NCBI GenBank assembly: GCA_903813345.2
Contig: CAIIXF020000003.1
Coordinates: 10,926,931-10,990,930, forward strand
Reading direction: 5' to 3'
Origin: Owenia fusiformis
Lineage: Eukaryota > Annelida > Polychaeta > Sabellida > Oweniidae
Length of the DNA stretch: 64,000 nt
Under the pieces are notes generated by a model that was not told the DNA's origin, ran no database searches, and saw nothing but the letters and a program-made list of their open reading frames with translations. Positions 1 through 63,300 of the stretch are shown one piece after another. Made by a program: the position numbers and the translations under genes. The number at the start of each line of letters is the position of its first letter. Within the stretch, counting starts at the first letter, position 1.

Positions 1-541
1 AATTTGACTGGCCCGGAAGTACCAATAAATGGAGGAATTTGACGGTTGAAATAAGTAAAATATTACACGCAAATATTGCGATCAAAAAGGAAAATTTCTT
101 CGTTCTGCCAATAAACCCAGATAATTGTGGATTCAACTATGCGAAAAGAATGCTAAAATTCCAAGGAATCTATTGAAGTAGGTATCTTAAGTGTAAGAGG
201 CGTAGAAAATTCTCCCATGTTGTAATCATACAGGCAAAAGATTGAGACATTCTCAGGACTAGACAATCCTGGCACGGGATAAGATCAGATTAATGAATAC
301 GCCGGATTAATTTTAACTTGTTGAACTAGGACAAGGGATGACTTAGAACATAATAGTAGCAATACAGATTGGTACAGCACAAGAACTGACCAATCAGAAG
401 GCTTCATTTTACAGATCATACGATAAAGTTTAATATTTCTCGAGCCAATAGTACGAAGAATTTCTAAGTATGGTTACCTTAGAGAATGTGACTGAGGTGC
501 CATCACTTTATCCAAATGACAAGTTAACGTATCTGTTTCAG
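1..541 (+). other. RABIF intron segment
   Basis: Sequence upstream of the RABIF acceptor. The first 60 bases carry AATTTGAC-type motifs that recall the MITE at 1534-3421. Bases 366-432 are an inverted relative of 8583-8640 next to RAB5IF exon 2. No exon encoding the first CxxC of MSS4 is present. Confidence 0.5.
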
Positions 542-793
542 GCATTCCTTCCACATATGAAGAAGAAGTCAGATGATCAAACAATAGAAGATGGGGAAAT
601 GTTGCAGAATTACTGGGTAGTTGCTGACATGTTTGACTTTGAAAATGTAGGATTCCTAAAGACAGTTGGTACCATAAAATACTTAATATGTGCAGACTGT
701 GAGGTGGGACCAATAGGATACCAGAATTTGGAGGACAAAACTGCTCTATATGTGTCCTTAGATAGGGTTAAGCACCTCTATGTGTCCCAATAG
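542..793 (+). CDS. RABIF: RABIF/MSS4, last coding exon (partial gene)
   Basis: The 83 residues encoded here match the C-terminal two thirds of MSS4/RABIF: the FLPHMKKK segment, the DMFDFENVGF core, the second zinc-binding CxxC in ICADCEVGPIG, and a tail ending in LYVSLDRVKHL. Known role: MSS4 is a cytosolic holdase that binds nucleotide-free exocytic Rab GTPases and stabilises them; the Mss4 fold binds zinc through two CxxC pairs. Only the second pair is visible, because the first lies in an upstream exon outside the window. An open frame continues upstream to an ATG at 470, but family homology begins exactly after an AG acceptor (ttctgtttcag type) at 540-541, so I place the exon start at 542. 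The stop is TAG at 791-793. The gene converges on RAB5IF. Identity is secure; the exact acceptor is inferred. Confidence 0.93.
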   Translation, partial: AFLPHMKKKSDDQTIEDGEMLQNYWVVADMFDFENVGFLKTVGTIKYLICADCEVGPIGYQNLEDKTALYVSLDRVKHLYVSQ

Positions 794-30300: not shown

Positions 30301-33300
30301 TGTTGGAGTGTTGGAAATTCAACCAATGGATGGCAGTGATAACAGGCAAACATACAATTCTAGGTTGATTTTGGTTCAATCCAAAATTAAACACTAGCAT
30401 TTGGAAAATTAAAAAAATAACATAGCATGCCTCCCTTTGGATTTGGAAACCAGAGTTTCTAAATTACCATGTTCAAGTGCTACAACACATTGGAAAAAAG
30501 CAAATACATGTATGTTTAAATAACACACAAAAACACGAGGACTAATATCCATGTAGTGTATTTTAAAAATCTGTACAGACACCATCATGCAGAATTTTAG
30601 AGCTGTTCAGACACAATCATTTTTCGAAACAAAAAACAGTGATATCTCAAAAAATATGCGTCCTCTGCTTGTAAATTTAGATTTACTTGAAAGACTTGGA
30701 TAGTATGCATAAGTGGGGCGAGATTTAACGCATTTAACAAAGTAGAAATATAAATAAAATATTCATTTTTCTGGCTTAATTGGGAAAATGTTACACCCTG
30801 TTCAGATACCTTCAATTGCGAAGGTCACTTGATGATTATCAGATTATCCCTACCGTGTTATCTTTTGGGAGATATTTCTATTTGAGATTATTAGCAATAA
30901 TTGCTAGGTCAGTAGCAGAAAAGGGAATGAACTGTGAGCAAGGATGTATTTAACTAGACATTTAACATTGAAAGCGATCTTAAGGATGCTCCATAGCAGT
31001 GATGGGACTCACCCAAATTCGATCATATTACAAAAGAAATAAAACCTTCTAAAATTATTATGCTCCAAAACAAAAATTCTAAAAAACAAATTTAAACAGA
31101 TCACTTTTGACCCATACCGTTTCTGTAACTTAAGTGACAAGGTTATTCAGGAAAAACATTTCGAAAAATCTTAATTTAATTATTAGTCATGTGATTTCAT
31201 GCATTGGAGTAACGAGGTGCCTAGGGGATGGGTGATTTCAACAGGGTAGGTAAAATGAACCAACGAGGTGGGGCACCATGCAATTAGATCCTGAGAAGAC
31301 CACAGCACAAATAACTAAAGAAAAGCTAATAAGAGGCTATAAGAGCTATAAAAAGAGCTATGAAAAGCTATAAGAGGCCTCCCAAATAAGAGTGTGACAG
31401 GAATAGGCATATGACCAGAGGATGTATAGGCATGGTATAGGCATCACTATTATCAGCTCAATATAGAGTAAATGAAAGGAATATGACCAGAGAATGTATA
31501 GACAATCATTATCCCACCGAACGAAGTTCAAGGGGGATATAGAGAAGCCGTCCGTCTGAAATCAATTATAATCTACCTACATGATGTAGACATCCAAATG
31601 TTGGTCTGAATTTATCTTTGTGGAAAGATTGTATGCTTCAGTTGCTCTTAACAAAACATGTGGAACAGTGTATCTATATATTACAAGATGTCCGTCCGTC
31701 CGTTCGTTTGTCTGTGTGTCCGGGCGATAACTCCAATTTTCAATATGGCCGCTCAATTCAAAATGGCCGCTAGTTTTCGTAAAAAATGTAATCGTTGATA
31801 ACTCAAATACAAGTTGACAGATTTGGTTCAAATCTTACATGCTGATGCCTAGGGACAAAGGAGTTTCGCACAAAAAGAGATTTTCAAGATGGCCGCTTAA
31901 TTTCAAAATTGCGGCCATTTTTCGTAAAAATATGTAACCTTTGATAACTCAAACACCAGTGAACGGATTTAGTTCAAATTTTAGATGATGATGCTTAGGG
32001 ACACAGTATCTATGTTCGACAAAAATTTCAAGATGGCCGCTTAATTTCAAAATGGCGGCAATTTTTCGTAAAAAACGTAATCTTTGATAACTCAAATACC
32101 AGTGTACAGATTTTGTTGAAATTTTATATGATTATGCCTAGGGACACAGTAGCACTGTTCAAGAAATAATTAACAAGATGGCGGCTGAATTTCAAGATGG
32201 CGGCCAATTTTCGTGAAAAACGTAATCTTTGTTAACTCATATACCAGTGAACGGATTTGGTTCAAATTTTATATGATGATGCCTAGTTCACAATGGTATA
32301 AACTAATTTTGTGCCTTTCATGCTTCTATCTCAAAGTGCACAAACATTTCAAAATTTACACTAGCTATAATAAGCATAATATGTTTTGTTTGGTGGGATT
32401 TGCTACTCCGTGGAGTTGCTGTTTTTCTAGTTAATTCATGTAAATGTTTTTTTTGTAATTCTAGTAAACGAGAATTTTCGTTTAGAAATAAGGAGGTGTA
32501 CTTTAATTTGCTAGTCTATGAATGTTTTTCGTATTACCTTAACTGGCAATAGCCATCGTGTTCCCAGCACATCTGAAGAGCATTCACTTGGAATAAATTG
32601 ACAGCCATCCATCCAATTTTTCCAGAAATTATTTGAAATAAGTAAGTCCAAGAAATCAACGTATAAGCCTACTTTTGAAATTGTAATGTATTTTCGCAAA
32701 AGAACATGTTAGCGGTATAACTCATATACCAGTGAACGGATTTGGTTCAAATTTTATATGATGATGCCTAGTTCACAATGGTATAAACTAACTTTGTGCC
32801 TTTCATGCTTCTATCACAAAGTGCACAAACATTTCAACATTTACACTAGCTATAATAAACATAATATGTTTTGTTCGGTGGGATTTGCTACTCCGTGGAG
32901 TTGCTGTTTTTCTAGTTGCTTATCAGCTCAATACAGAGTATGTGTTGGGAACATTAAACTAATGTTATAATAAACTTAATAGACAATGATCACTGCTGAA
33001 TAGAACTGATATGATATCTTGAAAATATATTCTACATAGCACTGCCTATAATAAGTGACTCCACTGAGAACCTAGCTATAAAATAATGCAGTAGCCATGA
33101 TATATGTAATTTAAATTGATAATGGAACAGAAACAAATTTACAAAAATATAAAGTTAATTTGTTTTAAGGACTTTGAATTCAGTGATTATTATATAGATT
33201 CAATGAGTCTTTTAAAGTAAAGAACATAGAAATATAAGATGAATAAGTATTTATTTTTTTCAAGGGAAGTGAATATCATCAGGTTTAATACTGATAGGTA

Positions 33301-36300: not shown

Positions 36301-39300
36301 ACCATTTTAATTTGACAGGTTTCCTATTTGGATGGCAGTGCTATACCAAGACTTACTGTATGTAGAACACATGAATCTGAAATGTTTATTTCCAGATAAA
36401 TGATAAACTCGAGCTCAGTCCTGAATCCGCCAAATTAAATATGAAATTGAGCAAATCCGCAAAATGAAGTAGCGTCAAATTAAGTCTAGTACAGTAGTTC
36501 ATTCAATAGATAGAAAACATGGAAGAGATTTGGTAAGGGAGATAAGATTAGAATAGTAATAGGCCCTGATATGAAATATCCGATTTCAAAAAACATGAAC
36601 ATCAATCAAGTTTTAGTTGAGTTTAACTAGACTTATAATGATCAGCCAAAATTAAAATATATATCTCTATTTATAGCATATTTTGCTCTATTAGTCTATA
36701 TTTCTCTGCTAGATTTTCTGACTTGTAATTCTCAATTTGGACTGGAGTGTTGACTACATTCCTATTTATTTTATTTCTTGCTGATTCCATTAATTGTTTC
36801 ATTATTTCTCATTTAAAGCATTTGAGATGAGATGATCAGGCACATATGGGGTGTAATATATTGCCATGACCAATGAAGAATTATTAATCTTAGTCCGTCT
36901 GTCTGTCTGTCCATCCATCCGTCTGTCAACAATTGGCGTGTTTTAAAACCTCTGTCAATAGGATTCCCGTTTTAAGTTATTTTTGTTCGACAACATCAAT
37001 ATAGAAAACCTCCCTATGACTCCTGGTTCAAAAGCTTGCCTATTTTCAAAATGGCCACCATTTTTGTCTCGCGAAATTCACTTTTGGACCATTTGCTTTA
37101 AAACTCTGTAGATAGGATTCCCGTTTTAAGTTATTTTTGTTCAACATCAATACAGAAAACTCCCCTATGACTCTTGGTTCAAAATCTCATCTATTTTCAA
37201 AATGGTTGCCATTTTTGTCTCACGAAATTCACTTTTGGCCCATTTCCTAGCTTTACAAATAATTTCAGGTTTCCTGCATTGTAAAAAGCCATGTCACTGT
37301 AAAGAGTAGTTGTATGAAATAATTTTGTTACAAAATATCGGCAAAAAATCTTTTGGACTATTTGCCTTAAAACCTCTGTCGATAAGATTCCCGTTTTAAA
37401 TTATTTTTGTTCAACATCAATACAGAAAACTCCCCTATGACTCCTGGTTCAAAAGCTCACCTATTTTCTAAATTGTTGCCATTTTTGTCTTGTGAAATTC
37501 ACTTTTGGCCCATTTCCTAGCTTTAAAAATAATTTCAGGTGTCCTGCATTGTAAAAAGCCATGCCACTGTAAAGAGTAGTTGGGTGAAATAATTTTGTTA
37601 CAAAAAATCGGCAAAAGATTTTATCCATTTTTTTAATTTTCTGCCATTTTAGCCATCATTCACTTTTGAGCAACACCATGTGAGCCCAGTACCCATGGTA
37701 CTATTTTTATTACATCTTGGAGGTAATGAATCCTCATTGATCTTTGAGGTTATTTATCCTTTGTGCTCATACATCCTGGAGGTCATAGATTTTAGTGTAG
37801 ATCTTGGGGATTCATTAGATCTTCAGGGTTCTTAGATCTTGATAGGTTTTCTGAAAAATGAGTGTTTGTTATGAAGGTTTATGTTTCTATGTCAGTATCA
37901 TCATTGGTTTATATTAGGCTATTATATCCCACACAAGTCAAAGTCATATTAAGTTTAAACTAATTTTAAACATGATAAATTACACATACACCTGTATTTT
38001 AACTAAAAGGTCAGGTCAACCTTAATATATGTTGATAACCTTCCTTTGAACTGAATCTCAAAATAATAAATGATAAGAAATCAATGGCCAGAAAGTAAGA
38101 TAGCTAATTATATTATATCAAAATTAGAATTTCGTAAAACTAATAGTACAACTAGTTATTTTTAATGAGGTACAGTAAAACCTGTCTAATCCGAACACCC
38201 ATGGGACCAGCCAAAAGAGTTCAAATTGGCAGGTGTTCAAATTTCGAGGATTTTGTTGGTCGGGGGGGGGGGGGATTTTCATTGTTCAGTGCACTATATT
38301 GAACACTTAATACTAAGTCAGAAAACAATACATGTTGTTGATGAGTTAATTCTACAATAGGCCTATAGCCTATATGCTATGTTTTATTTATATTTTGAAC
38401 AATTTCATCATTTTAGTAAAAATAACTTATATTTTGGCAAAAACTTTGTAATACACTGTGAAAGTATATGATAGTCTCGTACGAAATCTTATGCTTATCA
38501 AATGGCTTATCCCATATTATGGTTACATAGCACTGCTTTACTTTTGCTTGTAAAAGTCCTTCATTGTTGTTTGTTTCTTGGCACTTTTAGCATTAGCAAT
38601 ATTTGAGTAGATATCCTTTTCAAGTAAAAATAATTTTTCATGAGTGTTCATTCGAGATGATGTATAATCCTTCAAAATATCAAGGGCATTCAGGATGTCA
38701 GATGTATGGGAATATTACGAAGTTGGATTTTTTCTCCTCGTGATATAATCGTGTCTGCAAATGGCGTCTGTGTTGTCTTTGTGATTATAAAACATTTACT
38801 GATTGAATCTTAGCTATCATAACAGACCCATGGGATATAAAACAGTTAAGACCTGTTCATAATTCAAATTAAAAACATCCAGTTAATTTACAATAAGGAT
38901 AAACCAATTATCTCCCAGACTCTCACCTTTCTCTTAATCCAAATCAAAAACATCCAGGTAATTTCCAATAATGATAAATCAATTATCTTCTTGATTCACA
39001 CCTTTCTCTTAATCCAAAAATAAAACATTCAGTTCTTTTCTAATAGGATAAACCAATTAACTCCTGTATTCACACCTTTCCAAAACATCCTGTTGTTTTC
39101 CACAAATTAGGGATGCCACTGAGACTAAATAAGTTAATTAGGACAATTGGTTCTTTGATTGCATTTGTATATATGTAAAGATAAATAACAACTATAACAT
39201 TGACTCAATATCTGGCTTTAATTGAAATGTCCAGACATTTGATTTCTGATAAAAATGTTCAGATTAGACAGGTCACTTTTTCAAATCTGGTTGTTCACTG

Positions 39301-42300: not shown

Positions 42301-45300
42301 ATCCTATATGAGGTTCAGGATAATGGGATTATCCCGAGGCCAATATAATATATCTGCTCGAGGGCCGAGGGATAATTCCAATATTCTGAACCGACTACAG
42401 GATAATATGTTTATCCCATACCAATCTTGGTTATCTGGTTCACATTGTTCAGTCGTGGAAATATTTTAGAATATTCATGTCCAGTTTTGTTTTCTTGGCC
42501 GTTGGTGGATTTTCCTGTTCCTGTAAGTTTGACTTACAGTCTAGTGTAGAACCTTGCCTAGATAATAACATCACTTTGTATGATCTCAGGGCTACAAATA
42601 ATAAGAACATCAAGGAGACTGTGGCTCTGGAGCTGAGCTTTGTTAACTCTAACCTGCAAGTTCTCAAAGAGGAGATGGCAGAGTTGAATAGCACAATGGA
42701 TGTTTACCAGAGTGGGGGGTAAGTTGTAAAATCTGATAAATGTCATTTTCATTGAATTGAGGAAGCATAAGTCTGATCATCACAATGCTTAATGCTTATG
42801 CGAACTAAATAATTCTAAAATTTCAAGGCAAAATATGCAAAATTGACCGAGTTATTCAACTTTCTTACGGTCCTGTTTTTTGGACACCCTGTATATATTC
42901 TCTTTTTCACATACTGCCCTGTCAAGATTATTTCATAAAACTAACTTGCATTCAAAATCCTTTACCTGGAAACCTCTGTCATTGTTAATCCATTTTGTGA
43001 ACTGGTTGAAATAATTGTCTAACATATTGCAGAGGTGTATCCAGTGTACCAATGATCCCTATGGGCTTGAAGGAAACTAAAGATGTTGATATTGGACTCC
43101 CATTTCTGGTAAGTATACAGGCTGTTAAACCTTACAAGTTACAAATTAAGTAGTTGTTTACTGGCAAAAAGTGGCTCCATGCTATAGTATAAGAGCAATG
43201 ATTTGACCAGTGTTCAGCTTTAGGACATTATATATTTTTGTGATTTTAGTTTTTTACTGTATGGATACACAATTTTTATGGATATAAGTAATTGTGTAAT
43301 GCCATTTTTAATGTATCTTTGTTCCACTTTGGAACATAAGAATTGATTTTTTGGAAGAGAAATAATAAAAAATGAAGTTGGTGATTATCTCAGTTTCTTC
43401 TATACCCTTACAAAATGTTTCCTAGCTTTAAGTAAAAAATAAAGCTAAAATGATACCAGCTTTTTTGTTTGATTATGAAGCATAATCAAGTCATTGTCAT
43501 TTTAATATAAGAATTTAAATTTATTTTGAGGCCTTCGGGTATGCAACCTCCTTAATTCAACTAAAACCTAATCCTACTAACCCTGAAAATAAACTTGGGA
43601 AGTAATGGTGAATACATACGGACATGTTTATTGATAGTTACCTATTCTAGACAATATGTGTTTCCATGGAAGTGTAGTAATGATTTTGTTGTCACAAATA
43701 GGCCAATAACTTTAGAAATAGTCAAGTAGATTTGAACCTCACATCAAAACTAGGTGGCAAATAGGGACATTCTATCATATAAATTGCCTTGTATTCATAG
43801 TACTTATCTAGTAGAAAGATACATATACAGGGTGGTCAAAAAAGGAAACTCTAATACCATTTTCCTCATATCCTTGTCATTTTAAGGAATAACTCCCTGA
43901 TATTTTACACCTTTGTACATCATTCAATTTGCTACCAGCCTACTTTATTTCATGACAATCAGATAATCACAGTGTTTCAGTACTTTAAAGAACATGCCCT
44001 GTGGCCACTATTACATTGTGGGAAACCTGTATTCATCATCTAAAATGTCCCTACCTGTGGGGATATGGCAGAGATAGAGTATATGAGAATGACCTCAGGA
44101 CAATTGCAAACCTCAAAAGTGAGATCATTTGTGTCATTCAGGCCATACCTGCTGAGGAATGCATTCGGGTCATTGACAACTGTGCTGTTTTGCCTACAGC
44201 GCGATGATGGCCAAATCTGAAGCATGTTATTCATAGTGCTGTAAAATTGTGACTATCAGTCTGATGGTCATGTAATATGGTAGGGTGGTTGGAAATTGAA
44301 TGATGTACAAATGTGTGAAATATCAGGGAGTAATATTTTAAAGTGACAAAGATATAAGGAAAATGCAGGGTTTCCATTTTTTTGACCACCCATTTTTTTT
44401 GACCACCCTGTACTAGTATTATAATAGAAATGGTTAAATGCAATTATATATGGAACTTTTCAAAATCCCTTCTGGAAACTAGGCACAATAAAATTCCCTT
44501 TATTGGTCATAATACAAGTAAAGTACATGTAGTACTAACTCTTTACTGTACAATGTGCTTAACAACCTTGCTTAATTATTAGTCTTTGAAATATTGAATA
44601 TTGGCTTCATTTTTAGGTGGGAATAGAGATGCACCAACCAGAACTAATACTAGTATAAATCAAACTGTATATAAACAAAATCCTGTAAGGGGTTATGTAA
44701 TGGAAATTGTTATATTTTATCTGAGGAGGTATCTTTTCTAAAAATAAAAAAGTTATGTCTCTCCAGAGTACTGACTTGGTTTTTATCTTGCACAGCAGCC
44801 TTATTCTTCTACTCAAATGGTAGAATTATCAACTCTAAACTGGTACTCAGTCAATTCTCTAAATTATATAAGTCCTGGAATACAGTCTTTCAAAATGCTC
44901 AACCAGACAGATATTTTAGGTAGAATCATGCATTATATTCTTGCATTTCATCTTATGAAGAGGCAGTTGTTACATTCTTTACATAACACATGCACTCATT
45001 GATATCTCTCCCTGATTGTGGTTTGCAAGAGAGGAAGACAGCCTGTACATAACATTATCTCAAGTCATTTCCCTTTCATCCCATTTCTCTCTCTTTTTGA
45101 ATGAAAAAATGAGGATAACTGTAAAAAGAATCATGTAAATCCCTGTTTACATGATTCACTTCTTATTCCCCACCATTGCTATTTGTTTTCTATTCTAAAG
45201 CATGCCCATCATGAGATTTTTCTCACTAGAAATCTATGATAAACTCTAAATGTTATCTTGAAAAAGCAAGTAGTATTGATAGATATGAGATATCTCATCC

Positions 45301-48300
45301 CAAATAAACACTAGCCCTCTCTAAAACAGGATTTCCATGGTATCCATAAAAGAGCTACTCAACTATATCAGTCTTGTTGAAGAGGCTACTTAAAGGAGTG
45401 TATGTGTATTGTGTGGAAATGCTTTCTATTTGGATTGTTCTTTTCAAATAGTTTTCAAAATCAACCTACTGCCTGTTTGAATTGATTTTGAAATGTATCT
45501 CAAAAAGTAGTTCTAAGATTTTATTCAGAGTAATTGTGCTATTGGATTTGGTCCAACTTTCATAGGCCAGTGCTTTTCAATGCTACTCGAGAAGGACTCT
45601 CTAATATGGCATCACATTATTACTACCACCTTGCGAGGTCTGTTCTCAGTTACTAGTTTAGAAGCCTTATTTTTTACTATATTAACTTGAGCAATAGGTG
45701 GAGCCATAGTGCCAGGCCATAGTGGTCATTATCCACCCTGCTCCAGGGCGAATAATGAGTTTGTACTAAGTTTTCAAGAGATCGTGGCCACAATTTTATT
45801 GTTGCCCGCTGAAATGAGGTTATTGTTTATATTGATGTAGATTTTCTTAAAAGGAGACAAGGCAATAGTACTGCCTGGTTATTTCTATCATATGATGTTC
45901 AGAATGATGAGTGATTTGATAAGATATGTTTCATTAGGTGGGATTTGCTACTCCAATGTTAAGGATGTAAAACTAAAAATAAAATATAATGAATCAGTAA
46001 TAAAATGGGTAAATAAGATAGCTGTAGAAGGAAGGTTAAGTCATGAGAAATAGTACCAATCGAGAAATCCAAAATGTCTCAATAATTCTGCTGTTGAGAC
46101 TTTGTTTGAGGCCATGCAAGCAAAGTTAAATATGGAAATTTCCTTTTATTTAAAATATTGACAGCCATTTTTGTATGTGATATAAACTGGAAAAGGTGTA
46201 ATGGAAAAGAAGTAGAGAAATTTTGTTTGTTGATATTTAGAAGCATATTACACTGTTGAGCTAATGAAAATTTGGCTAATAGGTGGCCATTTTCAAAAAC
46301 GGCAGCCATTTTTGTGAGTGGTTGATTGGATTTGCTACACCTTGACATTGCCGATCTCTAGTTAACCTCATTGTATTGCATTAGTTTTACTGCATTAATT
46401 AACCTAATTGTTTTGCATTAGTTCTACTGCATTAATTAACCTAATTGTTTTGCATTAGTTCTACTGCATTAATTAACCTAATTGTTTTGCATTAGTTCAC
46501 CTAGTTTTACTGCATTATTTAACATAATTGTTTTGCATTATATTCTAATATCCTTTATTGATGTTGTTGCAGGACTATATCCAGGAACATTACAGTGAGG
46601 AGCCTAGAGACTATGCAGATGAAGTACAGGAGCTAGCCAGCATTAGACAGGTAGGAAATCACTGTTTCACTGGCAGCTAGACTATACTTGAACTGACTCT
46701 ACTGTCAGCTAGAGTCTACCTGCCCTCACTCTACTGTCAGCTAGAGTCTACCTGCCCTCACTCTACTGGCAGCTAGACTCTACCTGCCCTCACTCTATTG
46801 GCAGCTAGACTATACCTGCCCTCACTCTACTGGCAGCTAGACTATACTTGCCCTCACTCTACTGGCAGCTAGACTGTACCTGCCCTCACTCTACTGTCAC
46901 CTATACTCTACATGCCCTCACTCTACTGGCAGCTAGACTATACCTGCCCTCACTCTACTGTCAGCTAGAGTCTACCTTCCCTCACTCTACTGTCAACTAG
47001 AGTCTACCTGCCCTCACTCTACTGGCAGCTAGACTATACCTGCCCTCACTCTACTGTCAGCTAGAGTCTACCTTCCCTCACTCTACTGTCAACTAGAGTC
47101 TACCTGCCCTCCCTTAACTGGCAGCTACTCTAGCTGACCTCCCTTAACTTGCGGCTAAACTCTACATGCTCTCACTATGCTGGTTGTATGGAAACTCATT
47201 GCTGACTTAATTTTGTGATACTTACAAGTATTTATCACAGGTATTTATAGACCATCATTGCTTGATTTATAGCAAAAACATTGACTTGAGCGCACACTGG
47301 TGGTGTTGCACTTTTTAATTGATCTCTTATCTTATAAGCATCCCATTTTGCCCACCCTGTATGTTTTTTATTTTGGCACATATATGTTTTTTATTCTATT
47401 GATTCTTACCATACGGTAAACAGGTGTAGAGGGGTATAGGGTTGGCGATAAAATTCATTTTGTCCTTTCCAGTTATGTGGATAGTATTTCTAATAGAGGG
47501 TCTTTGACTCCATGCATTGTATAATCTGAAATTTTGAAAAAATGAGTATTATAATAATGCAAAGTAAATGTTTTAGGCAATCAGAACACCTCAAAGAAAT
47601 CCATATGGCATTGAACTACTTTATGATTACTATAACCAGCTGTATTTCGTCGAGAAACGTTTCTTCCCTCCTGACAGAAGTCTTGGAGTCTACTTTGAGT
47701 GGTAAGTTGACAATGAACTATTTCCTCACTTTCAAACCAATTTCACATTAATCTTTTACTCACTTTTACCTCAGAATTTGGAATTGAAATTGTTTATACT
47801 GTATACTACTAGTATTATTTAATTAAGTAAATACATTTTGTTATGTCCTTTTGATACAGAAATCCTTACTTTATTTAGTTCCTTCATATATAAACTGAGT
47901 TAATGCATGTGTTTTCAGGTATGATTCATTAACAGGTGTACCCTCAGCACAGAGAACTGTTGGCTTTGAAAAAGGTGGCATTCTCTTCAACATAGGTGCC
48001 CTACACACACAGATTGCTTGCCAACAGGTACCAGAACCTATATATGTACAGAACCAAAACCTAATATGTTTATATTATTTTATGATTATGTTGTTAATAT
48101 ATATTTCATAATGGTTGTAGTAATACAAGAAATATATTTTCAAATCAATTTTTATTTTGACACTGACATGTTCAATAATTTCCAGGATCGTGCCAACAAA
48201 GATGGGATTAAGTCAGCAATCAATAACTTTGAGAAGGCAGCAGGTGCATTTAAATATCTCCATGACAACTTCAGCAATGCTCCTAGTATGGACATGCAAC

Positions 48301-51300
48301 CCCAGACCTTGGCTATGCTTGTACAGCTGATGCTGGTAGGTAAACCCACTTGATTTAGTGGACAGCAACAGGAACATCCACCATAGAACATGTCTTCTGG
48401 TCATTTAGTTTGGTCATTCAGTTGCCATACAGTCCATGTACAGTCCCCCTTTGGCCACTTTGCGCCTGCCTTGGTAGTTGTCAAAAAAACCTACAGCTGC
48501 TGTAGACACCCCAAGGCCACAGAAAGTTAAATTTCAAAAGCTGCATGGCATCCGCATGTTTTCTCTCATCATGAATTCAAAATATGCCAAACGCCAATGC
48601 ATAGCAAATGTGACTGCTGAAGTATGTGACCATAAAAATTTTACTGCAACTGTAGGATTGCTATTGGCCATAGAAATATAAGACCAATGCAGTAACCATA
48701 GCAAATGGGACTCAGGTATAAGTTGGGTTAATAAGAAGGTATTTAATTTTAGCTATTTTTTTTATATTTGACAGCTATTTAATTTTGGCAAGTTTGATTT
48801 CTGCATTTTCATTCATTGTTCCTTCAGTTTAGCTGAACAATCAATCAATTTTTTTTCTGAACCCAACTAAGTCTTTTAGTATTGGTAAGAAAATGATTTT
48901 TTCATTCTGAGGGTCAGTATTATAGATTTGATTTCCTAATAATATTTCACAAGATGAACTTCATCATTGTAGGTTCCGCATATTATATTATATATATTCT
49001 CCAAGGCTCTTTTGTCATTAATGTACAATGAGGATTTATGGTGACTAACTTTAAGACCTATAATGAAATGCTACTTGATTCCCCTGTGGAATATTGAGAA
49101 TGGTGGGTGGTTCATTCTTTTTATGTGTGTTATATTTTTAGGCACAGACCCAGGAGTGTGTATTGGAGGAGCTTATTCTAGGTGGGGTTGGAGATGGTAT
49201 AGAGAAACATTTGGAGGTTGCTCATGAAGCTGCCATGGTAACCAATTTCACTATAGTTTTCTTTACATGATGAACTTAATGACATCTATTCTGTTCAAAC
49301 AAACACAAAAGCATTATGTAATGATATCAAATGGTTAATAGCATAAACCGAACTCTTGCAAAAGTGACAAAAATAGTAACCACATCTGATTTAATAGAAA
49401 TGTATGCATTATTCTGCAACTATATAGTATAGTCTATATAGTATATCCATTAGTTTTTAATTGAAATGATGTACTGTTCTGTAGATGTCACAAATATCAT
49501 TGTTCAGTGTTTCTGCAGGTATCACAGATATATGAAGAAGTGTTGTATTTCATTGTACAGTGTTTCTGCAGGTATCACAGATGTATGAAGAAGTTTTTGT
49601 ATTTCATTGTTCAGTGTTAATGCAGGTATCACAGATATATGAAGAAGTGTTGTATTTCATTGTTCAGTGTTTCTGCAGGTATCACAGATGTATGAAGAAG
49701 TGTTATATTTCATTGTTCAGTGTTAATGCAGGTATCACAGATGTATGAAGAAGTGTTATATTTCATTGCACATTGTTTCTGCAGGTATCACAGATGTATG
49801 AAGAAGTGTTATATTTCATTGTTCAGTGTTAATGCAGGTATCACAGAAGTATGAGGAAGTGTTTTATTTCATTGTTCAGTGTTAATGCAGGTATCACAGA
49901 AGTATGAGGAAGTGTTTTATTTCATTGTTCAGTGTTTCTGCAGGTATCACAGATGTATGAAGAAGTGTTTTATTTCATTGTTCAGTGTTTCTGCAGGTAT
50001 GAAGAAGTGTTTTATTTCATTGTTCAGAGTTTCTGCAGGTATCACAGATGTATGAAGAAGTGTTATATTTCATTGTTCAGTGTTAATGCAGGTATCACAG
50101 ATGTATGAAGAAGTGTTTTATTTCATTGTTCAGTGTTTCTGCAGGTATCACAGATGTATGAAGAAGTGTTATATTTCATTGTTCAGTGTTTCTGCAGGTA
50201 TCACAGATGTATGAAGAAGTGGTTTTATTTCATTGTTCAGTGTTTCTGCAGGTATCACAGATGTATGAAGAAGTGTTATATTTCATTGTTCAGTGTTTCT
50301 ACAGGTATCACAGATGTATGAAGAAGTGTTATATTTCATTGTTCAGTGTTTCTGCAGGTATCACAGATGTATGAAGAAGTGTTATATTTCATTGTTCAGT
50401 GTTTCTGCAGGTATCACAGATGTATGAAGAAGTTTTTGTATTTCATTGTTCAGTGTTAATGCAGGTATCACAGATGTATGAGGAAGTGTTTTATTTCATT
50501 GTTCAGTGTTAATGCAGGTATCACAGATGTATGAAGTGTTTCTGCAGGTATCACAGATGTATGAAGAAGTGTTATATTTCATTGTACAGTGTTTCTGCAG
50601 GTATCACAGATGTATGAAGAAGTTTTTGTATTTCATTGTTCAGTGTTAATGCAGGTATCACAGATGTATGAAGTGTTTCTGCAGGTATCACAGATGTATG
50701 AAGAAGTGTTATATTTCATTGTTCAGTGTTTCTGCAGGTATCACAGATGTATGAAGAAGTGTTATATTTCATTGTTCAGTGTTTCTGCAGGTATCACAGA
50801 TGTATGAAGAAGTGTTATATTTCATTGTACAGTGTTTCTGCAGGTATCACAGATGTATGAAAAAGTTTTTGTATTTCATTGTTCAGTGTTAATGCAGGTA
50901 TCACAGATGTATGAGGAAGTGTTTTATTTAATTGTTCAGTGTTAATGCAGGTATCACAGATGTATGAAGTGTTTCTGCAGGTATCACAGATGTATGAAGA
51001 AGTTTTATATTTCATTGTTCAGTGTTTCTGCAGGTATCACAGATGTATGAAGAAGTGATATATTTCATTGTTCAGTGTTTCTACAGGTATCACAGATGTA
51101 TGAAGAAGTGTTATATTTCATTGCACATTGTTTCTGCAGGTATCACATATGTATGAAGAAGTGTTATATTTCATTGTTCAGTGTTTCTGCAGGTATCACA
51201 GATGTATGAAGAAGTGTTATATTTCATTGTTCAGTGTTAATGCAGGTATCACAGATGTATGAAGAAGTGTTATATTTCATTGTTCAGTGTTAATGCAGGT

Positions 51301-54300
51301 ATCACAGATGTATGAAGTGTTTCTGCAGGTATCACAGATGTATATAGAAGTGTTATATTTCATTGTTTCTACAGGTATCACAGATGTATGAAGAAGTGTT
51401 ATATTTCATTGTTCAGTGTTTCTGCAGGTATCACAGATGTATGAAGAAGTGTTATATTTCATTGTACAGTGTTTCTGCAGGTATCACAGATGTATGAAAA
51501 AGTTTTTGTATTTCATTGTTCAGTGTTAATGCAGGTATCACAGATGTATGAGGAAGTGTTTTATTTAATTGTTCAGTGTTTCTGCAGGTATCACAGATGT
51601 ATGAAGAAGTGTTATATTTCATTGTTCAGTGTTTCTGCAGGTATCACAGATGTATGAAGAAGTGTTTTATTTCATTTTTCAGTGATTCTGCAGGTATCAC
51701 AGATGTATGAAGAAGTGTTATATTTCATTGTTCAGTGTTTCTGCAGGTATCACAGATGTATGAAGAAGTGTTTTATTTCATTTTTCAGTGATTCTGCAGG
51801 TATCACAGATGTATGAAGAAGTGTTATATTTCATTGTTCAGTGTTAATGCAGGTATCACAGATGTATGAAGAAGTGTTATATTTCATTGTTCAGTGATTC
51901 TGCAGGTATCAGAGATGTATGAAGAAGTGTTATATTTCATTGTTCAGTGTTAATGCAGGTATCACAGATGTATGAGGAAGTGTTTTATTTCATTGTTCAG
52001 TGTTTCTGCAGGTATCACAGATGTATGAAGAAGTGTTTTATTTAATTGTTCAGTGTTAATGCAGGTATCACAGATGTATGAAGTGTTTCTGCAGGTATCA
52101 CAGATGTATGAAGAAGTGTTATATTTCATTGTTCAGTGTTTCTGCAGGTATCACAGATGTACGAAGAAGTGTTATATTTCATTGTTCAGTGTTTCTACAG
52201 GTATCACAGATGTACGAAGAAGTGTTTTATTTCATTTTTCAGTGTTTCTACAGGTATCACAGATGTATGAAGAAGTGTTATATTTCATTGTTCAGTGTTT
52301 CTGCAGGTATCACAGATGTACGAAGAAGTGTTATATTTCATTGTTCAGTGTTTCTGCAGGTATCACAGATGTATGAAGAAGTGTTTAATTTCATTGCACA
52401 TTGTTTCTGCAGGTATCACAGATGTATGAAGAAGTGTTATATTTCATTGTTCAGTGTTTCTGCAGGTATCACAGATGTATGAAGAAGTGTTATATTTCAT
52501 TGTTCAGTGTTTCTGCAGGTATCACAGATGTATGAAGAAGTGTTATATTTCATTGTTCAGTGTTTCTGCAGGTATCAGCGATGTATGAAGAAGTGTTATA
52601 TTTCATTGTTCAGTGTTTCTGCAGGTATCACAGATGTATGAAGAAGTGTTTAATTTCATTGCACATTGTTTCTGCAGGTATCACAGATGTATGAAGAAGT
52701 GTTATATTTCATTGTTCAGTGTTTCTGCAGGTATCACAGATGTATGAAGAAGCTTACAAGCAGATGTCTCAAAAACCTGTCAAGGATTATGCCCCATTTC
52801 CTTGGACCTCCATGTGCCAGGTTAAGGCCCAACATTTTGGAGCAATGTCACACTACTACGCTGTCACAGGGCTGCTAGATCAAAAAGGTAGGCACAACCT
52901 CAGTCTTAAGAAGGATTTTCTCAAAATGACCTCCTTAAATGTTTTATTTTCTCTAAACATTATTTCTTTTATTTGATTAAAAGCATGTCTCTAGAAAACA
53001 TTTCATGATTGTACAAATATTTATGTTAACTAAAGGGTGTCCCAAAAGTATGCCCCCCCCCCCCCCTAGGCAGATATATTCCAATGTCTCCTTATTATGT
53101 GTCATGTATTATTTTAAAGCTCATCCAAAGTGACATTGATTTCCCAAGTATCATGGTTCAACTCACAAATGGAAAAAAGTTACAGGCATTTCAAAATTAA
53201 GTGTTTGGCCAAAAATATAGTTCATTTCAGTATCTTGGTAACAGCCCTGATCTGAATGAGGCCGAAAATATGGATGCTATTGTCGAAGAAAGGATGGATA
53301 TTGAGTTCTAAAAAGAGGATGTTGAGGGTAGATACTCCAAGGAAACTCTTCTAGAATGCCTTCAAAAGGTTTTATGAGGATTACAAAGTGCCACATCCCT
53401 ATTTGAAGCTCGTTTAAAGTCATATATGGAAAGCATTGCTGCTGATTACATGGCCTAGGGAGACACACCGACTATTATTTTGGTGCAGAGGTGGCATTAA
53501 CGCAATTTTTTACGTTTTTTACTCACATTTTTGCAACTCTGACGCAAATATTCATTGTCTACCGAGTCTTTCTGACGCACGTTTGTTTCACATGCAAAAT
53601 CCCCGCTTGGTACTTGGTTAAATTGATCCCTATACGTGAAAATACGTGATTGATCAAATTTATAATTTTGCTAATTCCGGAAATCTAACATTTCGTTCAG
53701 CGTAATCGAGCCTCCTTCCTACCGATCATTTTCTCATTTCGGTATTTCATATAATTTTTAAAGCCCTGTGATTCAGATTCAATGATAAACTTGAAAACAT
53801 TGATCGATCCCTCGATTTGTTTATCTCGTGAAGCACGTTGCTAGGGGGCATATCAAAAATGCAATAAAACGAACATAACATTGAACAATAATTTATTAAT
53901 TTCATACTCCCTTCTAAGGATTTTAGTGATCGTATATTTATCTAAATTACCGCATAAAATCTTCCCTTGAATGTTCACACGCTAGATTTACGAACCTTTA
54001 GTCTCCTTCGCAAGTTCGCAAAATTCCTTCGCTAAGTTCCTTGAGCCGTCCCCTTCATCAGCATGCGCAGATGTAATGCGCAGTAGGTTTCTCAATGGTT
54101 CTCACAGTGACCGATCTATCGTAAGTTTTCACCAAGTATTTTCAATTAACTCCCTCAAGTTAAGATCTTCGATTCACTAGATCTGAAGCTGATCCTATGA
54201 AGATAGATAATGGGCACATGAAAATCCAGTCGATCGCACATTAAGGGGGGTAATGATGATAAATTAGGTATGAAAACAAATCTACTTTCGGTTTCATTTG

Positions 54301-57300
54301 ATCAGCTATAATTACAAGATTCTACCGTATTCAATTTAAATGATGCCCAGTATTGTGGTCGGACTTATATTGCCGTTTTAGACTTTGGAATGATTGCAAA
54401 AATGTTGAATTTCAACATGAAACGCTTTGACCCCAATTTGTGTAACTCCACACAGGTAGAAACTCCTCTCCCACTCCATTCACACCCATGACTCGCTGGA
54501 CCAGATAATCAGATGATTAATAGTGACATTTTTCTTGCAATTGCCTAATTAATTAATTGTTAGTTGTTAATGTGCTATAAGAGTACAATAAAAGGTATGC
54601 ACAAAATCAAAAAATAGATTTTGTATGTGGTTTCTACATTTTGTATGAATTTTTATTCAAGAAAAACACTTTTATAGCTTTGACTCAACTTTTTTTCTTG
54701 TGACTCACTTTTTTGAAACTACCTGAGTCATGATGACTCACAAAAATATATGCCTACCGCCACCGCTGTGGTGTGAAACTGACTTTAATTTCAGCCAAAC
54801 ACTAAATTTTGAAATGTCTATAACTTTTTCCCATTTGTGAGTTGAACCATGATACAGGGTGTTCAAAAAAACGCAAACCAAAGAAATCGCTATATCTTGT
54901 AAAATACTAATCCAATTAGGTTCATATTTTCAGGAAAGAAAGAAGAGACTGTGTATGTTTAGCCCCTGTTGTTAGTTAGTTGTAAAACACGATGTCTTGG
55001 ACACTTGCTCAAAAGACAGTTGTACTAGCAAAATACAAAAAACGCGGATAAAAAATCACTATATCATGGAAAATACTAATTCAATTATTTTCATTCTTTC
55101 AGGAAAAGAAAGAAGAGACTGTGTTTGTATAGCTCCTGTTGTCAGTAAGTTGTAAAACATGCCTTGGACACCAGCATTTGACTGCGATTTGAAAGCATTT
55201 CAACCATGACTGTAAAGTCCCTGAAGTAATTTTGATTTCACTCTACAGATTTATTATTCAGTGGATGAAGATGATTTGTGCCAAATTTGAAGAGCCAAAA
55301 CACTATGGTTAGGAAGTTATTTAATTTTTTGCAGTTGCAGTCACCCCTGACTTCGTTTTTCGTATTTTCCTAGTACAACTGTCTTTTGAGCAGGTGTCCA
55401 AGGCATCGTGTTTTACAACTAACCATTTACAGGAGCTATACATACACAGTCTCTTCTTTATTTCCTGAAAGTATGAACATAATTGAACCAGCATTTTTCA
55501 AGATATAGCGATTTCTTTGGATTGCGATTTTTTTGAACACCCTGTACTTGGTAGATCAATGTAACTTTGTATGAGCTTTAAAATTATATATGACACATAC
55601 TATGGAGACATTGGTATATGTCTACCTAGGGGGGGGCCATACTTTCGGGACACCCTGTACATGCAAGAATGACATATACATCTATGGTGGCCATTTTAAG
55701 ACATGATTTGAGAACCGTTGTCAGACACTCATTACTGTTATATATTTATAGGTTAGATGGAATTTACTATGCCTTGGCGTTGCTTTAGTTTTCTATTTAA
55801 TTCTGGAAATGATTATTGGATTTATCAACTAGTCATGCCAGAATGTGAGAAATGTTACAATCAATTGCATTGTATAGTATTTACAGAATGCTATTATGTT
55901 GTATGACATCATACCCATCTCCAACAAAGACTATTTCCATGTGCATAGCCATTTTACGTGGATTATTTTATGTGTTTTTTTTACTATATCTCGAAAAGTA
56001 GCGGAGCCATTTTCTTCATATTTGATGTGAACACTACCGTATAAGCATGGCACACTGTCCAATGACACTTTGGGGAGTACGTGGCCATTATGAAAAGTGG
56101 CTACCATTTAAATATGTTATTTTACGTTTCTAACTATAACTAAAAAAGTAATAGAGTGATTTGTTCATATTTGATATGTGAATACTCATAAGGATGGTAC
56201 ACTGTCTTATGACATTTTGGCTAGTAGGCAGCCATTTTGAAAAATTTACATGTATGTGTCCGCGGTTTTGTTGAAATTTTATATTTGCCTACTTAAAAGC
56301 ATATTACACTTTCTGATGACAATTTGCAATTTGAAAATGGTGGCCATTTTTATGTGTGTATTTTAACATTTTTGCTATACACTTCATTTGCAACACTTTG
56401 TCGTTGCTGTTGTATAAGTTTGTGCATGAATTTTATTATTTCACTTGAAATGAAATGCATCTTAATATTGTATTGCAGACAGTAATGATGTTCACCTGCT
56501 AGAGAAGCTGTTTGGCAAGCTACATGTGGAGGAAAATGAAAACACGTCAATGCTTTCCAGAGTGCCTTCAGATGAGGATGATAAAAAACAATTAGGTAGT
56601 TTGGAAAAGATACAACAGATTTGCAATTTAAAAACTACAATAATTGAAATATATGCTTGAAATGACTCCTGGGGATGTGGAATTAGCACTTCTGAGATAC
56701 AAAGAATAGCAAAAACACAAATTTAAGATCAGCACTCTTTCAAGGAATAAGCATTAAGATATCCTGAATATCGTGGAAAATGAAGATAAAGAATCATGTT
56801 CAATCTGATGAGTGGCAAGCAATGAGTTAGTGTTAGGCATTCAGGATGAAAAATCTATATAGATTACAGGATCACCCAACATGTAAAGCAAGTACAAGTG
56901 CATAATTGTAAAACTGTATGTCTTATGCAATGTATTTACAGCTCGTGCTCACCTTAAAGATGCTCTGTTGTTACATGAAGAGGCCTTAAAACATCATGAC
57001 AGATGTAAACATCTGAGAAAGATAGACACATTCCAGGAAGTTCTTAAGCATGCCCATGATAGGTAAATCATTCTCGGGGTTTCTTAAGCATCTCTTGGCA
57101 AGCAATGAAGTCATCATATTTTCGTATTTACCTTTCTCTGAAACATGCACTTCAACAGTAGATCTTCCTTGGCCTTTTTCTGAAGCGTGCAAAATATTGA
57201 TAAGCTTATATTATGTTAGTTCGAGTCTTTGCATGATGCAGTGGTCATGGTCATTATTGAAGGTCACATCATATTATATTTTGAATGCAAAGTATTCAAA

Positions 57301-60300
57301 AACTTGTTAATGAATGAGTACTTCAGTTATAATAGATACTAGAGAGAAGTTATACATATATTGCTTACATATTATTGGATTTATTGACTCATATGATTGT
57401 TTGCCAGGTCATTGAAGAAGTTTTCTGACCTTGAAGAAGAAGATGATTTCACAGAGGTCAGCAGTTCACCCAGCATTAAATGTAAGTCACCCCTGTATCA
57501 TCCAACATCAAATATAACTCACCCTCCATCACCCTTACATAAGAGTAATTTTATGTACTGTAAAATGTAATCTTTGAAAACTCCCAGTTTGGTTCAAATT
57601 TTATATGCTGATCTCTTGGGAACATAAGACCTTATCTCAAGAAGATATTTCCAAGATGCCCACTGAATTTAAAATGATGGCCATTTTCATGATAACCCTA
57701 ATACTCAGTTACCATATTTTGTCCAAATTATATATGTAATGTCTTATTGGAATGGGGCCTCTATTTAACCCTTATCCTCCCGACTAAAATGGCAAAAAGT
57801 GCAATTGTGTCCATTTCTGAAAGCTTACAATCAAGGTTGAAATAATTACTTTTCAATTTTTATTTTATTTTAAATCGATCGAGAAGACCAATTCAAACAC
57901 ACATTTCACCTAGTTTCTTTGCTATCATCCCCGTGTGTCATACTTCACCTGTTCCAAATGTGCTTTAGTTTCTTCTGAACTGCCATTTTTCTATCAATTC
58001 ATCAGTATTGTGGTCATATAAACAGCTTTAGTTGCAAGAAAATCGATCTGTACTTTTTTTGCACAGTACCTATGCACAAGAAGGAATGTGAATTGAAAAA
58101 AATGTAATTGCATTTTTTTTATTCTAGCTAAGACAGCTCAACATGCAAAAGTAATTATGCCAGACTTTGCCAGATATAAAGTTACAGATCTATTCCATAA
58201 ACTGGTATGTATAGTGCACCAATGCATCATCATCATTAATAGTAATACTAATAGTTATTATGTAGTTTTTTTTACATGTAAATGTCTTCTTTTTCCTTCC
58301 TTTATAATTGTTATAATTTTTGTTTGTACATGTACCCCAAGGGGTGTGAATGTACTTGAAGAATAAATAAATAAATATGTATATACACTGTACATTTTTA
58401 TCACACTACCTGTCCATATGATGTTTGTGGGATTTTGCTTGAGCTGGTGTTCCACTTTTTTACCCTCGCAATTCCAGGGAAATAACTAGCTAGAATTTCT
58501 TCAAATACAATTCAAACTCCCATATTGGAGTGTATCAAGTAAACCATTCCACCCGCTATGGCTCAGTGGCAGAGTCAAGGTTACCAATATCGCTTGGCCC
58601 CGGGTTCGATTCCCGGTTCAGACAAGTTTGTTTGTGTTATGTACTTCTGGGTGTTTGACTGAGTGGTTCACGACTCGTATAAAAGGCTGTGGTGTGTACC
58701 TGTATATCTGTGAACCTGTGCACACAAAAGAACACAGGGCTCCTCCAAGGAGGGGTTTCTTGCTCTATCTTCGCGCCTCTATCTTCGCGTGTAAAATACG
58801 TAAAATACGGAATATACCAATGAAGTATTGCTCGCCAAATGTGGCGGTAACCACAATATAATAATAATAATAATATTTATTATACTCAAATGAAAGACAA
58901 TTTAGAGTAAATTGCAAATATTGTATCATTTTTTGATTCGCAATAATTTTCTGATCTCTGAAGGCTATGGATTGAAGGCTCAGATTGAAGGTATTTTAGA
59001 GTAGATCACAATAATTGTTTTCTGTTTTTTGCAAAAATTCAAAATAGCTGCCCTGAGCAGGAAATCACTATTTCTTAAAGATCTCTTCAAAATATTGTTA
59101 CATTATACTGCATTAGATCTCAAATATTGAATTGTCTAATATTGAATTGTCTAATATCTCAATTGTATGTCTTTTAATATCTGCCAATTTAATCAAGGGT
59201 AGAATAGATGGTTAATATTACATTGTGACATATACAGATTCATGAATATTATCCTTCATTGGGATTTGCTTCTCAATGGAGTTGCCGATATCTTCCGATG
59301 AGTTGTCTTGGAATGAGATATTTGGAATGTGCTGTCTTGGGATTAGATATCTTGGGGATGAGTTGTTGTGTTACTCTGACTGCTTTATAAAACTGCCAGG
59401 TATATAGGATAAAAGGCATAAAACCTGCCATAATTTCTGTATAAACACTCATATCTTATATTTTGAAAAGAAGTATTAAGACATTGTTCCATTTCAGGGG
59501 CCTGTTGCAATATTTTCTGCCAAGCATGAGTGGTCATCTCCACGTGATGTTAGCATGCAGAAGTCTAGTAAACAGGGCTATGGGTTCAGTGTACGTGGGG
59601 ATTCCCCTGTCATTGTAGCTCAAGTAGACCAGGCAAGTTTAGCTCAGGTAAGTAGAAACAAGAACACAAATGTGTACAAAATGTCCCCACCAATGGGTGA
59701 TCCCGTCAAATGGTTATCCTGAAAATGAGTATAGACAAGACTTTACCAACACAATTTGAGGACGGAAAATCAAAAATGGCCACCTTAAAATTTACCCATA
59801 ATGCTAAAAGTTTTGTCAGTTCTAGATTTTCATACTAAGAACCACCCCTGAAAATTTGAAATTGATCCGTCACACAGTTAACCAGAAAACATGTAAACAA
59901 GACTTTACAGACAAGATTTTAGGATGGAAAATCCAAAATGGCTGCCTTGACATTTACCCAGAATGTCAAAAAATTAATCTGTTTCTAGATTTTCATACTA
60001 AAAATCATCCATGAAAATATGAAATTGATCTACCTAACGGTTCACCTGAAAATGCGTAGACAAGACTTTACAGACAAGATTTTAGGACAGAAAATCCAAA
60101 ATGGCTGCCTTGACATTTGCGCAGAATGCAAAAAAACTAATCAGATGTAGATTTTCATACTAAGAATCATCCCTGAAAATTTGAAATTGATTTACAGAAC
60201 GGTTCACCTGGAAATGTGTAGACAAGACTTTAAAGACAAGATTTTAGGACGGAAAATCCAAAATGGCTGCCTTGACATTTACCCAGGATGCCAAAAAACT

Positions 60301-63300
60301 AATCAGATCTAGATTTTCATCCTAAGAATCATCCCTGAAAATTTGAAATTGATCTACCAAACGGTTCATCTGAAAACGCGTAGACAAGACTTTACAGACA
60401 AGATTTTAGGACGGAAAATCCAAAATGGCTGCCTTGACATTTACCCAGAATGCCAAAAAACTAATCAGTTTTAGATTTTCATACTAAAAATCATCCCTGA
60501 AAATTTGAAATTGATCTACCAAACGGTTCACCTGAAAACGCGTAGACAAGACTTTGCAGACAAGATTTTAGGACGGAAAATCCAAAATGGCTGACTTGAC
60601 ATTTACCCAGAATGCCAAAAAACTAATCAGATCTAGATTTTTATACTGAGAATCATCCCTGAAAATTTGAAATTGATCCACCAAACCGTTCACCTGAAAA
60701 CGCGCAGACAAGACTTCACAGACAAGATTTTAGGATGGGAAAATCCAAAATGGCCGACAATAAAAAAGTGATTATGAGTTTTTGCTGATTTCTTTTTACA
60801 AAATTATCACAAGTAACTACTGTTAAGAACAACATAGGCTTTTACAAGAAAGTACATCTGAAATTATTTATAAAGCTACTAAATAGTTAAAGTATGAAAA
60901 CTCAAAAACACCATTTAATATGATACAAAGTATTATCGCGCGCTAACTTTTCTTAAGACATTCAAAATGGCTGACATGACTGAGCTAACAGGTCCAAAAC
61001 CTAATCAGATGTATAATGAAGTGAGCTGAACAAGATGTTAAAGTTTTAAAAGCAACTGTGAAGCCGTTTTTCTTAAAGTTTGCAGACAAGGATTTTAGCA
61101 TTTGACTTCAAAATGGCCGACAGGAAGTAGGTTTCGAGTTAATTTTTTTTCATCCACATCTATATGCACTCATAAGTTATCCATAAAAATTTGAAGGTGA
61201 TATCTGTAGTGGTTTTTGGAGAAAACTCCCGGACGGATGGACAGACGGACGGACAGACGGATGCGCCTAAGCCGACAATATGGCCCCACACTATGTGGTG
61301 GGGACATAAAAAGGAACCACAACAAGAATGCCATTTCACACAGATCATGTTCATGCAGTGATATTTTTGTTTTTAAGTATCTTCACATTCTTTGTTCTAC
61401 ATCATTCTGGAGACCATGTACTATTCTTTATATTAATTTCATCTCAAATAACTGTACACAAAATGTGTAGATGTCAAATTTTATTAGTCACCATATATTT
61501 CTTTGCATTCTCTACATTTTGAAATTAATCTCATACACAAATAGTAATCAAACTGATCTCAGTTTTCCAAAACCCACCAATGTTCTTATGCTTGCAAAAC
61601 TCACCAGTGTTCTTATGCTAACAAAACCTACCAGTGTTCTTATGCTTATAAAACCCACCAGTGTTCTTATGCTTACAAAACCTACCAGTGTACTTAGGCT
61701 TACAATGCCAGCCAGTGTTCTTATGCTTATAAAACCAGCCAGTGTTCTTATTCTTAACAAAACTTACCAGTGTTCTTATGCTTACAAAACCTACCAATGT
61801 TCTTATGCTTACAAAACCTACCAGTGTTCTTATGCTTATAAAACCCACCAGTGTTCTTATGCTTACAAAACTCACCAGTGTTCTTATGCTAACAAAACCT
61901 ACCAGTGTTCTTATGCTTACAAAACCTACCAGGGTTCTTATGCTTACAATACCAGCCAGTGTTCTTATGCTTAACAAAACTTACCAGTGTTCTTATGCTT
62001 ACAAAACCTACCAATGTTCTTATGCTTACAAAACCTACCAGTGTTCTTATGCTTATAAAACCCACCAGTGTTCTTATGCTAACAAAACCTACCAGTGTTC
62101 TAATGCTTACAAAACCTACCAATGTTCTTATGCTTACAATACCAGCCAGTGTTCTTATGCTTATAAAACCAGCCAGTGTTCTTGTGCTTACAAAACCTAC
62201 CAGTGTTCTTATGCTTACAAAACCTACCAGTGTTTTTGTGCCTACAAAACCTACCAGTGTTCTTATGCCTACAAAACCCACCAGTGTTCTTATGCTTATA
62301 AAACCCACCAGTGTTCTTATGCTTACAAAACCCACCAGTGTTCTTATGCTTACAAAACTCACCAGTGTTCTTATGCTTACAAAACCTACCAGTGTTCTTG
62401 TGCTTACAAAACCCACCAGTGTTCTGTTCTTATGCTTACAAAACCCACCAATGTTCTTGTGCTTACAAAACCCACCAATGTTCTTGTGCTTACAAAACCT
62501 ACCAGTGTTCTTATGCTTACAAAACCTACCAGTGTTTTTGTGCCTACAAAACCTACCAGTGTTCTTATGCCTACAAAACCCGCCAGTGTTCCTATGCTTA
62601 TAAAACCCACCAGTGTTCTTATGCTTATAAAACCCACCAGTGTTCTTATGCTTACAAAACCCACCAGTGTTCTTATGCTTATAAAACCCAGCAGTGTTCT
62701 TGTGCTTACAAAACCCACCAGTGTTCTTATGCTTACAAAACCTACCAGTGTTCTTATGCTAACAAAACCTACCAGTGTTCTTGTGCTTACAAAACCGACC
62801 AGTGTTCTTATGCTTACAAAACCTACCAGTGTTCTTGTGCTTACAAAACCGACCAGTGTTCTTATGCTTACAAAACCTACCAGTGTTCTTATGCTTGCAA
62901 AACCCACCAATGTTCTTGTGCTTACAAAACCTACCAGTGTTCTTATGCTTATAAAACCTACCAGTGTTCTTGTGCTTACAAAACCTGCCAGTGTTCTTAT
63001 GCTTACAAAACCTACCAGTGTTCTTATGCTTACAAAACTCACTGAGTGTTCTTATGCTTACAAAACCTACCAGTGTTCTTATGCTTACAAAACTCACCAG
63101 TGTTCTTATGCTTACAAAACCTTATTGGATCCTCAATAAAAGTTAATGTATATTTTAATTTCAGCCAACCTATTACTGACCTGCAATTTCCCTTGAATTA
63201 TCATCCCAGACTCATGTTCCAATTTAATTTTAAATTAATTGAATGATATTCTTTCAGAATGCTGGAATGAAAATTGGAGATTTTATAATTGGAGTGAATG

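Follow-up and report, generated by a model that had tools for sequence, protein, structure and literature searches.

In the present study of a 64,000-nucleotide stretch of DNA (contig CAIIXF020000003.1, hereafter the window), a tandem array of 63 complete units was observed on the + strand (49519-52730), directly upstream of exon 10 of a rhophilin-like gene, and each of these units carries a copy of the CAG|GTAT junction at which that exon begins. The array was delimited by direct scan, Tandem Repeats Finder and comparison with shuffled sequences. We consider it probable that it is a very long minisatellite of the mirage type, a tandem repeat whose unit straddles an intron/exon boundary, and that it is mostly removed with intron 9 and is close to neutral.

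Structure of the array and its host gene

Several lines of evidence define the array. First, the direct scan revealed 64 CAG|GTAT acceptors between 49519 and 52731, namely 63 upstream copies and the true start of exon 10, and the largest gap between these junctions is 54 bp, so that no junction has been missed. A first-pass annotation of this DNA had counted about 60 copies; the array is real, and the number is herein corrected to 63 extra copies. Second, the units are arranged head to tail, and an ordinary unit consists of the first 22 bases of exon 10 and 31 bases of intron 9, in agreement with the 53-bp unit of the same annotation. The complete units measure 53 bp (50 units), 54 bp (six), 30 bp (five), 42 bp (one) and 46 bp (one). 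Third, Tandem Repeats Finder reported periods of 106 and 159, corresponding to two and three units, over 49497-52752, and a period of 53 across several sub-stretches of the array. The start of the former call coincides with the 5'-most partial copy (49497-49518, + strand), which reaches to the first CAG|GT and resembles the original end of intron 9. Fourth, the 24-base intron tail matched the window 58 times at no more than three mismatches and was not matched in 100 shuffles; a chance origin of the array is excluded.

The AG|GT core is kept in all 64 junctions, and the unit straddles the intron/exon boundary of its host gene, a junction that is backed by an open reading frame and a BRO1 match (see below). 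The exon half of the unit codes for VSQMYEE of the BRO1 domain, exactly in 47 of the 56 units of 53-54 bp, and the array was therefore born from the rhophilin-like gene and not from an inserted element. Copies spanning a junction were found at 52731 alone among the 21 junctions tested, which are a part of those in the gene. Among the 63 units, 32 distinct sequences were observed, the most frequent of which occurs 14 times. The 50 units of 53 bp differ from one another at a mean of 3.0 positions, and a gradient of similarity along the array is nearly absent (mean edit distance of 6.9 at lag 1 and 7.7 at lag 20). The G+C content of the window ranges from 31 to 38% in 2-kb steps, compared with about 41% for Branchiostoma floridae, a difference that is compatible with an amphioxus. 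An exact 27-base pattern of the unit gave no match in viral or bacterial/archaeal contig collections, a result that is little informative, and no match was obtained in the window with Rfam at gathering thresholds or with tRNA scans.

The host gene encodes HR1, BRO1 and PDZ domains in that order on the + strand, which we take to be the definition of a rhophilin. The name thus rests on the domain order and on the PDZ match; the exon numbers follow the first-pass annotation, and some exon edges were set by eye from frames and splice signals. The HR1-domain exon region (42546-42717, + strand, edges approximate) scored just below the Pfam HR1 cut-off (30.9 bits, E = 2.6e-07, cut-off 33.1), and the second PDZ exon region (63258-63401, + strand, end approximate) scored exactly at the Pfam PDZ cut-off (23.2 bits). 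The best solved-structure match of the joined PDZ piece, which includes the first PDZ exon (59498-59647, + strand), is the PDZ domain of rhophilin-2 (1vae, E = 2.4e-11), and 2vsv was also listed. Some matches of the BRO1 exons lay above the cut-off and others, as single frames, below it; when six exons were joined between 47919 and 57062, with exon 10 beginning at 52731, an open frame of 249 residues was obtained, and this frame matches BRO1 with E = 4.7e-50. The region of the exon 9/10 junction also aligns to the Bro1 domain of PTPN23, with no gap at the junction. Exon 9 (49142-49237, + strand, phase 0) lies inside BRO1, is open in frame with its neighbours and ends at the donor ATG|GTAACC at 49238 (score 0.92). 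The true exon 10 (52731-52887, + strand, 157 nt), which is supported by the frame, the BRO1 match and the PTPN23 alignment, ends at the donor AAG|GTAGGC at 52888. The joining of these exons places intron 9 at 49238-52730 (+ strand), a length of 3,493 nt that holds the whole array.

Splice signals and coding consequences of the copies

The copies had been described in the first-pass annotation as dozens of near-equal acceptors, a description that does not suit all of them. A branch-point-like yUnAy motif (mostly TTCAT), with its A 20 bases before the exon, is present at 57 of the 64 acceptors, including the true one, and 13 upstream acceptors do not differ from the true one across the 53 bases before the junction. 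The motif is missing from this position at seven of the 63 upstream acceptors. Five of these close the units of 30 bp and have a yUnAy at 36 only; the other two, the most 5' acceptor and that closing the 46-bp unit, have no yUnAy between 15 and 42. The upstream acceptors end in TTTCTGCAG (39 copies), TTAATGCAG (16 copies), TTTCTACAG (five copies) or ATTCTGCAG (three copies), and the pyrimidine tract is damaged in the 16 copies reading TTAATGCAG. These broken-tract units are absent among the last 13 acceptors (P = 0.015), a pattern that was noticed post hoc in copies that are not independent. The true acceptor has 14 pyrimidines in 20 positions, within the range of 11 to 15 observed at ten other acceptors of the gene. 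An RNA structure that hides the copies was also considered and was rejected, as the local fold is not unusual: the folding of the last four units together with exon 10 was no better than that of shuffled sequences (z = +1.00, with 82 of 100 shuffled sequences folding equally well or better).

The consequences of choosing an upstream copy were computed on the assumption that the rest of the array is retained and that no splicing occurs inside it. A stop codon is met before the end of the extended exon (52887) for all 63 upstream acceptors, and of the 64 only that at 52731 keeps the exon open; together with the open BRO1 frame, this result supports the earlier claim that the last acceptor alone gives full rhophilin. 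From the nearest upstream acceptor (52678), a shift of one unit, the frame ends at TAG at 52876-52878, in agreement with the stop predicted near 52878, 9 nt before the exon end, and the other 62 frames terminate 50 nt or more ahead of that end. Since 53 is not divisible by three, the reading frame changes from each unit to the next, and in any one frame a stop is soon met unless variants remove it. The stop falls in the first unit for 15 acceptors, in the second for 11 and in the third for 26, the remaining 11 meeting it later, and the codons are TGA (42 acceptors), TAA (20) and TAG (one). The statement that longer inclusion normally meets TGA in the third unit thus describes the commonest case only, with 26 acceptors stopping earlier and 11 later. 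As further exons follow exon 10, all 63 upstream products would contain exon junctions downstream of the stop, and the usual rule predicts that they are targets of nonsense-mediated decay.

A probable near-neutral mirage and its alternatives

Herein, we propose the following origin and fate of the array. First, a segment comprising the tail of intron 9 and the opening 22 bases of exon 10 was duplicated in tandem, and the copies grew to 63, probably via unequal exchange or slippage. Second, the real exon is the copy at the 3' end, and the array lies inside intron 9 and would be mostly removed with it. Third, the last acceptor would mostly be used because it would pair best with the donor of exon 10 across a normal-sized exon of 157 nt, as the analogy with amphioxus suggests. 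Finally, the mistaken use of any upstream copy would lead to one of the premature stops computed above and, presumably, to nonsense-mediated decay, and no altered protein would accumulate. The array would then probably lower the yield slightly at most, and it is likely to vary in length between individuals.

This proposal is modelled on the mirages of amphioxus, which passages of two reports describe for Adh3, BflGb6, BflGb9, troponin C and PGBD5 (PMC3087553; PMC3902484). According to these passages, splicing is undisturbed in the Adh, troponin C and globin mirages (PMC3087553; PMC3902484), and no aberrant mRNAs arise from the splice sites that are duplicated in the mirages of Adh and troponin C (PMC3902484). 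The likeness to the present array consists of a tandem unit across an intron/exon boundary, with many units retaining the AG/GT signals. In contrast, the present array has 63 units, compared with 6 and 3 in BflGb6, in which the number varies between haplotypes (PMC3087553), and with 2 to 7 in the assemblies of PGBD5; the host is a rhophilin-like gene, and AG|GT is intact in every unit. By this analogy, splicing at 52731 is probably correct. The first-pass annotation had offered both a decoy that tunes rhophilin output and a neutral array: no positive evidence for tuning was obtained, the copy variation being uninformative, whereas the amphioxus mirages favour the neutral alternative.

Several points weigh against a near-neutral array. 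The first acceptor gives an intron of 281 nt, compared with 3,493 nt for the true one, and with so much shorter an intron simple proximity would favour the wrong sites. The branch-point-like motif stands in place at 57 of the 64 acceptors, and 13 upstream copies match the true acceptor exactly over 53 bases. In addition, the harmlessness of mirages of 2-7 units may not extend to 63 units. Copies of this kind are also not always inert, as a boundary-spanning duplication in potato is described as having made a new intron (PMC4974935).

A regulatory role for the copies is improbable in our judgement. Under this explanation, the upstream acceptors would be used appreciably, perhaps in a regulated manner, and nonsense-mediated decay would set rhophilin output according to array length. 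The stops in all 63 upstream products and the motif in place at 57 of the 64 acceptors, the true one included, are consistent with such a decoy, and so is the sequence CAG|GTATCA, which is present at 63 of the 64 junctions: in a comparison of the 56 units of 53-54 bp, 21 of the 53 columns vary and none of those in this sequence does. However, this invariance is unconvincing: P is 0.006 for the nine columns of CAG|GTATCA, which were chosen post hoc, 0.16 for any run of nine and 0.12 for AG|GT alone. The copy variation thus reveals neither clear protection nor purging of the splice core, and the intactness of AG|GT can be explained by chance. The broken pyrimidine tract in 16 of the 63 upstream acceptors and the normal splicing reported for the amphioxus mirages also argue against a decoy. 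It is likewise improbable that the array acts as a length-dependent rheostat, in which each added copy would send a minor fraction of transcripts into a product with a stop and the length of the array, which should vary between alleles and perhaps between cells, would set the dose of rhophilin.

Minisatellites that affect splicing have been noted in human genes. In a human interferon-induced transcript, said to be that of IFI6/6-16, several splice donors are reportedly supplied by a minisatellite, according to the title of a 1995 paper cited in PMC2572611; judged by this title, a minisatellite located on a splice site multiplies that site there as here, whereas the multiplied sites are donors there and acceptors here. 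In favour of a decoy, passages on the variable number tandem repeat (VNTR) in intron 18 of human ABCA7 describe a 25-bp unit that begins with a donor, splicing that depends on the length of the repeat, and a premature stop when one unit is retained (PMC5954066). This VNTR differs from the present array in that it carries a donor and not an acceptor, and these passages do not state that its unit repeats the start of an exon.

It is very unlikely that the array corrects its own errors. In recursive (zero-length exon) splice sites, the acceptor and donor dinucleotides are juxtaposed as AG|GT. The same juxtaposition is observed in all 64 copies, and CAG|GTATCA might thus serve both as acceptor and as donor, a wrong choice being respliced recursively until the true acceptor is reached. 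Donors were scored with a weight matrix that was not built from the host species, and nine of eleven gene donors sought were scored, as the other two were not located by the patterns used. These nine donors range from 0.15 (CAG|GTACCA) to 8.80, with 4.51 for AAG|GTAGGC of exon 10, and the intact array site CAG|GTATCA scored 0.32, above one of them (CAG|GTACCA). However, the donor recreated after splicing from exon 9, ATG|GTATCA, scored -1.97, below all nine gene donors, and about 24% of the + strand GT sites in the window score at least as high. Resplicing is weakened by this poor recreated donor: correction from exon 9 is unlikely, and splicing within the array is conceivable. A literature search combining recursive splice sites with "tandem" gave no match.

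There is also only a slight chance that the array is an assembly artefact and is far shorter or absent in the animal. Such an error is described for the BflGb6 mirage, which was mis-assembled before (PMC3087553). In the present case, 32 unit types occur among 63 units and only one block of at least three types occurs twice, unlike the result of simple looping by an assembler, and the flanks are ordinary gene sequence.

The least probable explanation is that the array gives rise to new exons, new introns or variant proteins, its pieces becoming cassettes or new intron ends. The longest open frame listed in the array (140 aa, 52060-52482) exists because some units have TACGAAG and not TATGAAG, without TGA, and a duplication in potato gave rise to a new intron (PMC4974935), as the authors of the globin study also propose for mirages (PMC3087553), but every simple upstream choice stops early, 53 is not a multiple of three and exon 10 itself is unbroken. 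In passages of the former report, the gain of introns by tandem duplication concerns potato RdRp and AGGT duplications in fission yeast and vertebrate ATP2A1, and in fission yeast a 24-bp AGGT segment is repeated several times in tandem, with an intron running across the copies (PMC4974935). The difference is that a new intron arises there, whereas here no new intron was created inside an exon and the copies extend an existing intron upstream of an unbroken exon 10.

Implications and other features of the window

The kind of structure is already known, and the present array stands out in its number of units and in the AG|GT kept in all of them. No comparably large acceptor array and no many-copy mirage outside amphioxus were found in the repeat and splicing literature searched, by which subscription journals are largely uncovered; for potato and fission yeast, duplications that cover splice signals have been described with one or a few copies (PMC4974935). 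The "mirage" of another report (PMC7960049) is a transposon of that name and not a repeat of this kind. Should the animal be something other than an amphioxus, mirages with many copies would be more widespread than this literature suggests. The array can be regarded as a natural experiment on the choice of acceptors by the spliceosome: a real site is set against 63 upstream copies, and 13 of these show no difference from it over the 53 bases before the junction. As unit variants mark many positions, errors of splicing could be read from RNA. A harmless array would mean that the choice of an acceptor must depend on its position relative to the exon and donor, and not on the acceptor sequence; a harmful one would be a tunable brake on the gene.

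Other tandem repeats were also observed in the window. An exon of 78 nt (46573-46650) is flanked by two minisatellites, one of which (46362-46541) ends about 30 nt before its acceptor, and the other of which (46669-47183), with about 16 pyrimidine-rich copies of 32 bp containing CAG, starts some 18 nt beyond its donor; neither junction of this exon is spanned by a copy. The intron that separates the two PDZ exons holds an array of 57 copies of 27 bp (61568-63122), a unit length divisible by three that leaves long open frames, reaching 468 aa on the + strand and 289 aa on the - strand. Tandem arrays at 31738-32286, 36942-37616 and 59732-60754 have units of about 145, 151/270 and 162 bp, respectively, and an AAAATGG-type sequence is present in each consensus. 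In the intron after exon 10, similar peptides (TLNFEM..TF.HL, identified by eye) are encoded in opposite orientation at 53163-53276 (- strand) and 54727-54840 (+ strand), suggesting that they are copies of a dispersed repeat. Finally, an Mss4 (RABIF-like) coding stretch is located at 452-793 (+ strand, E = 7.5e-30), and a LINE-like reverse transcriptase remnant, spread over several frames, is located at 9523-11363 (- strand).

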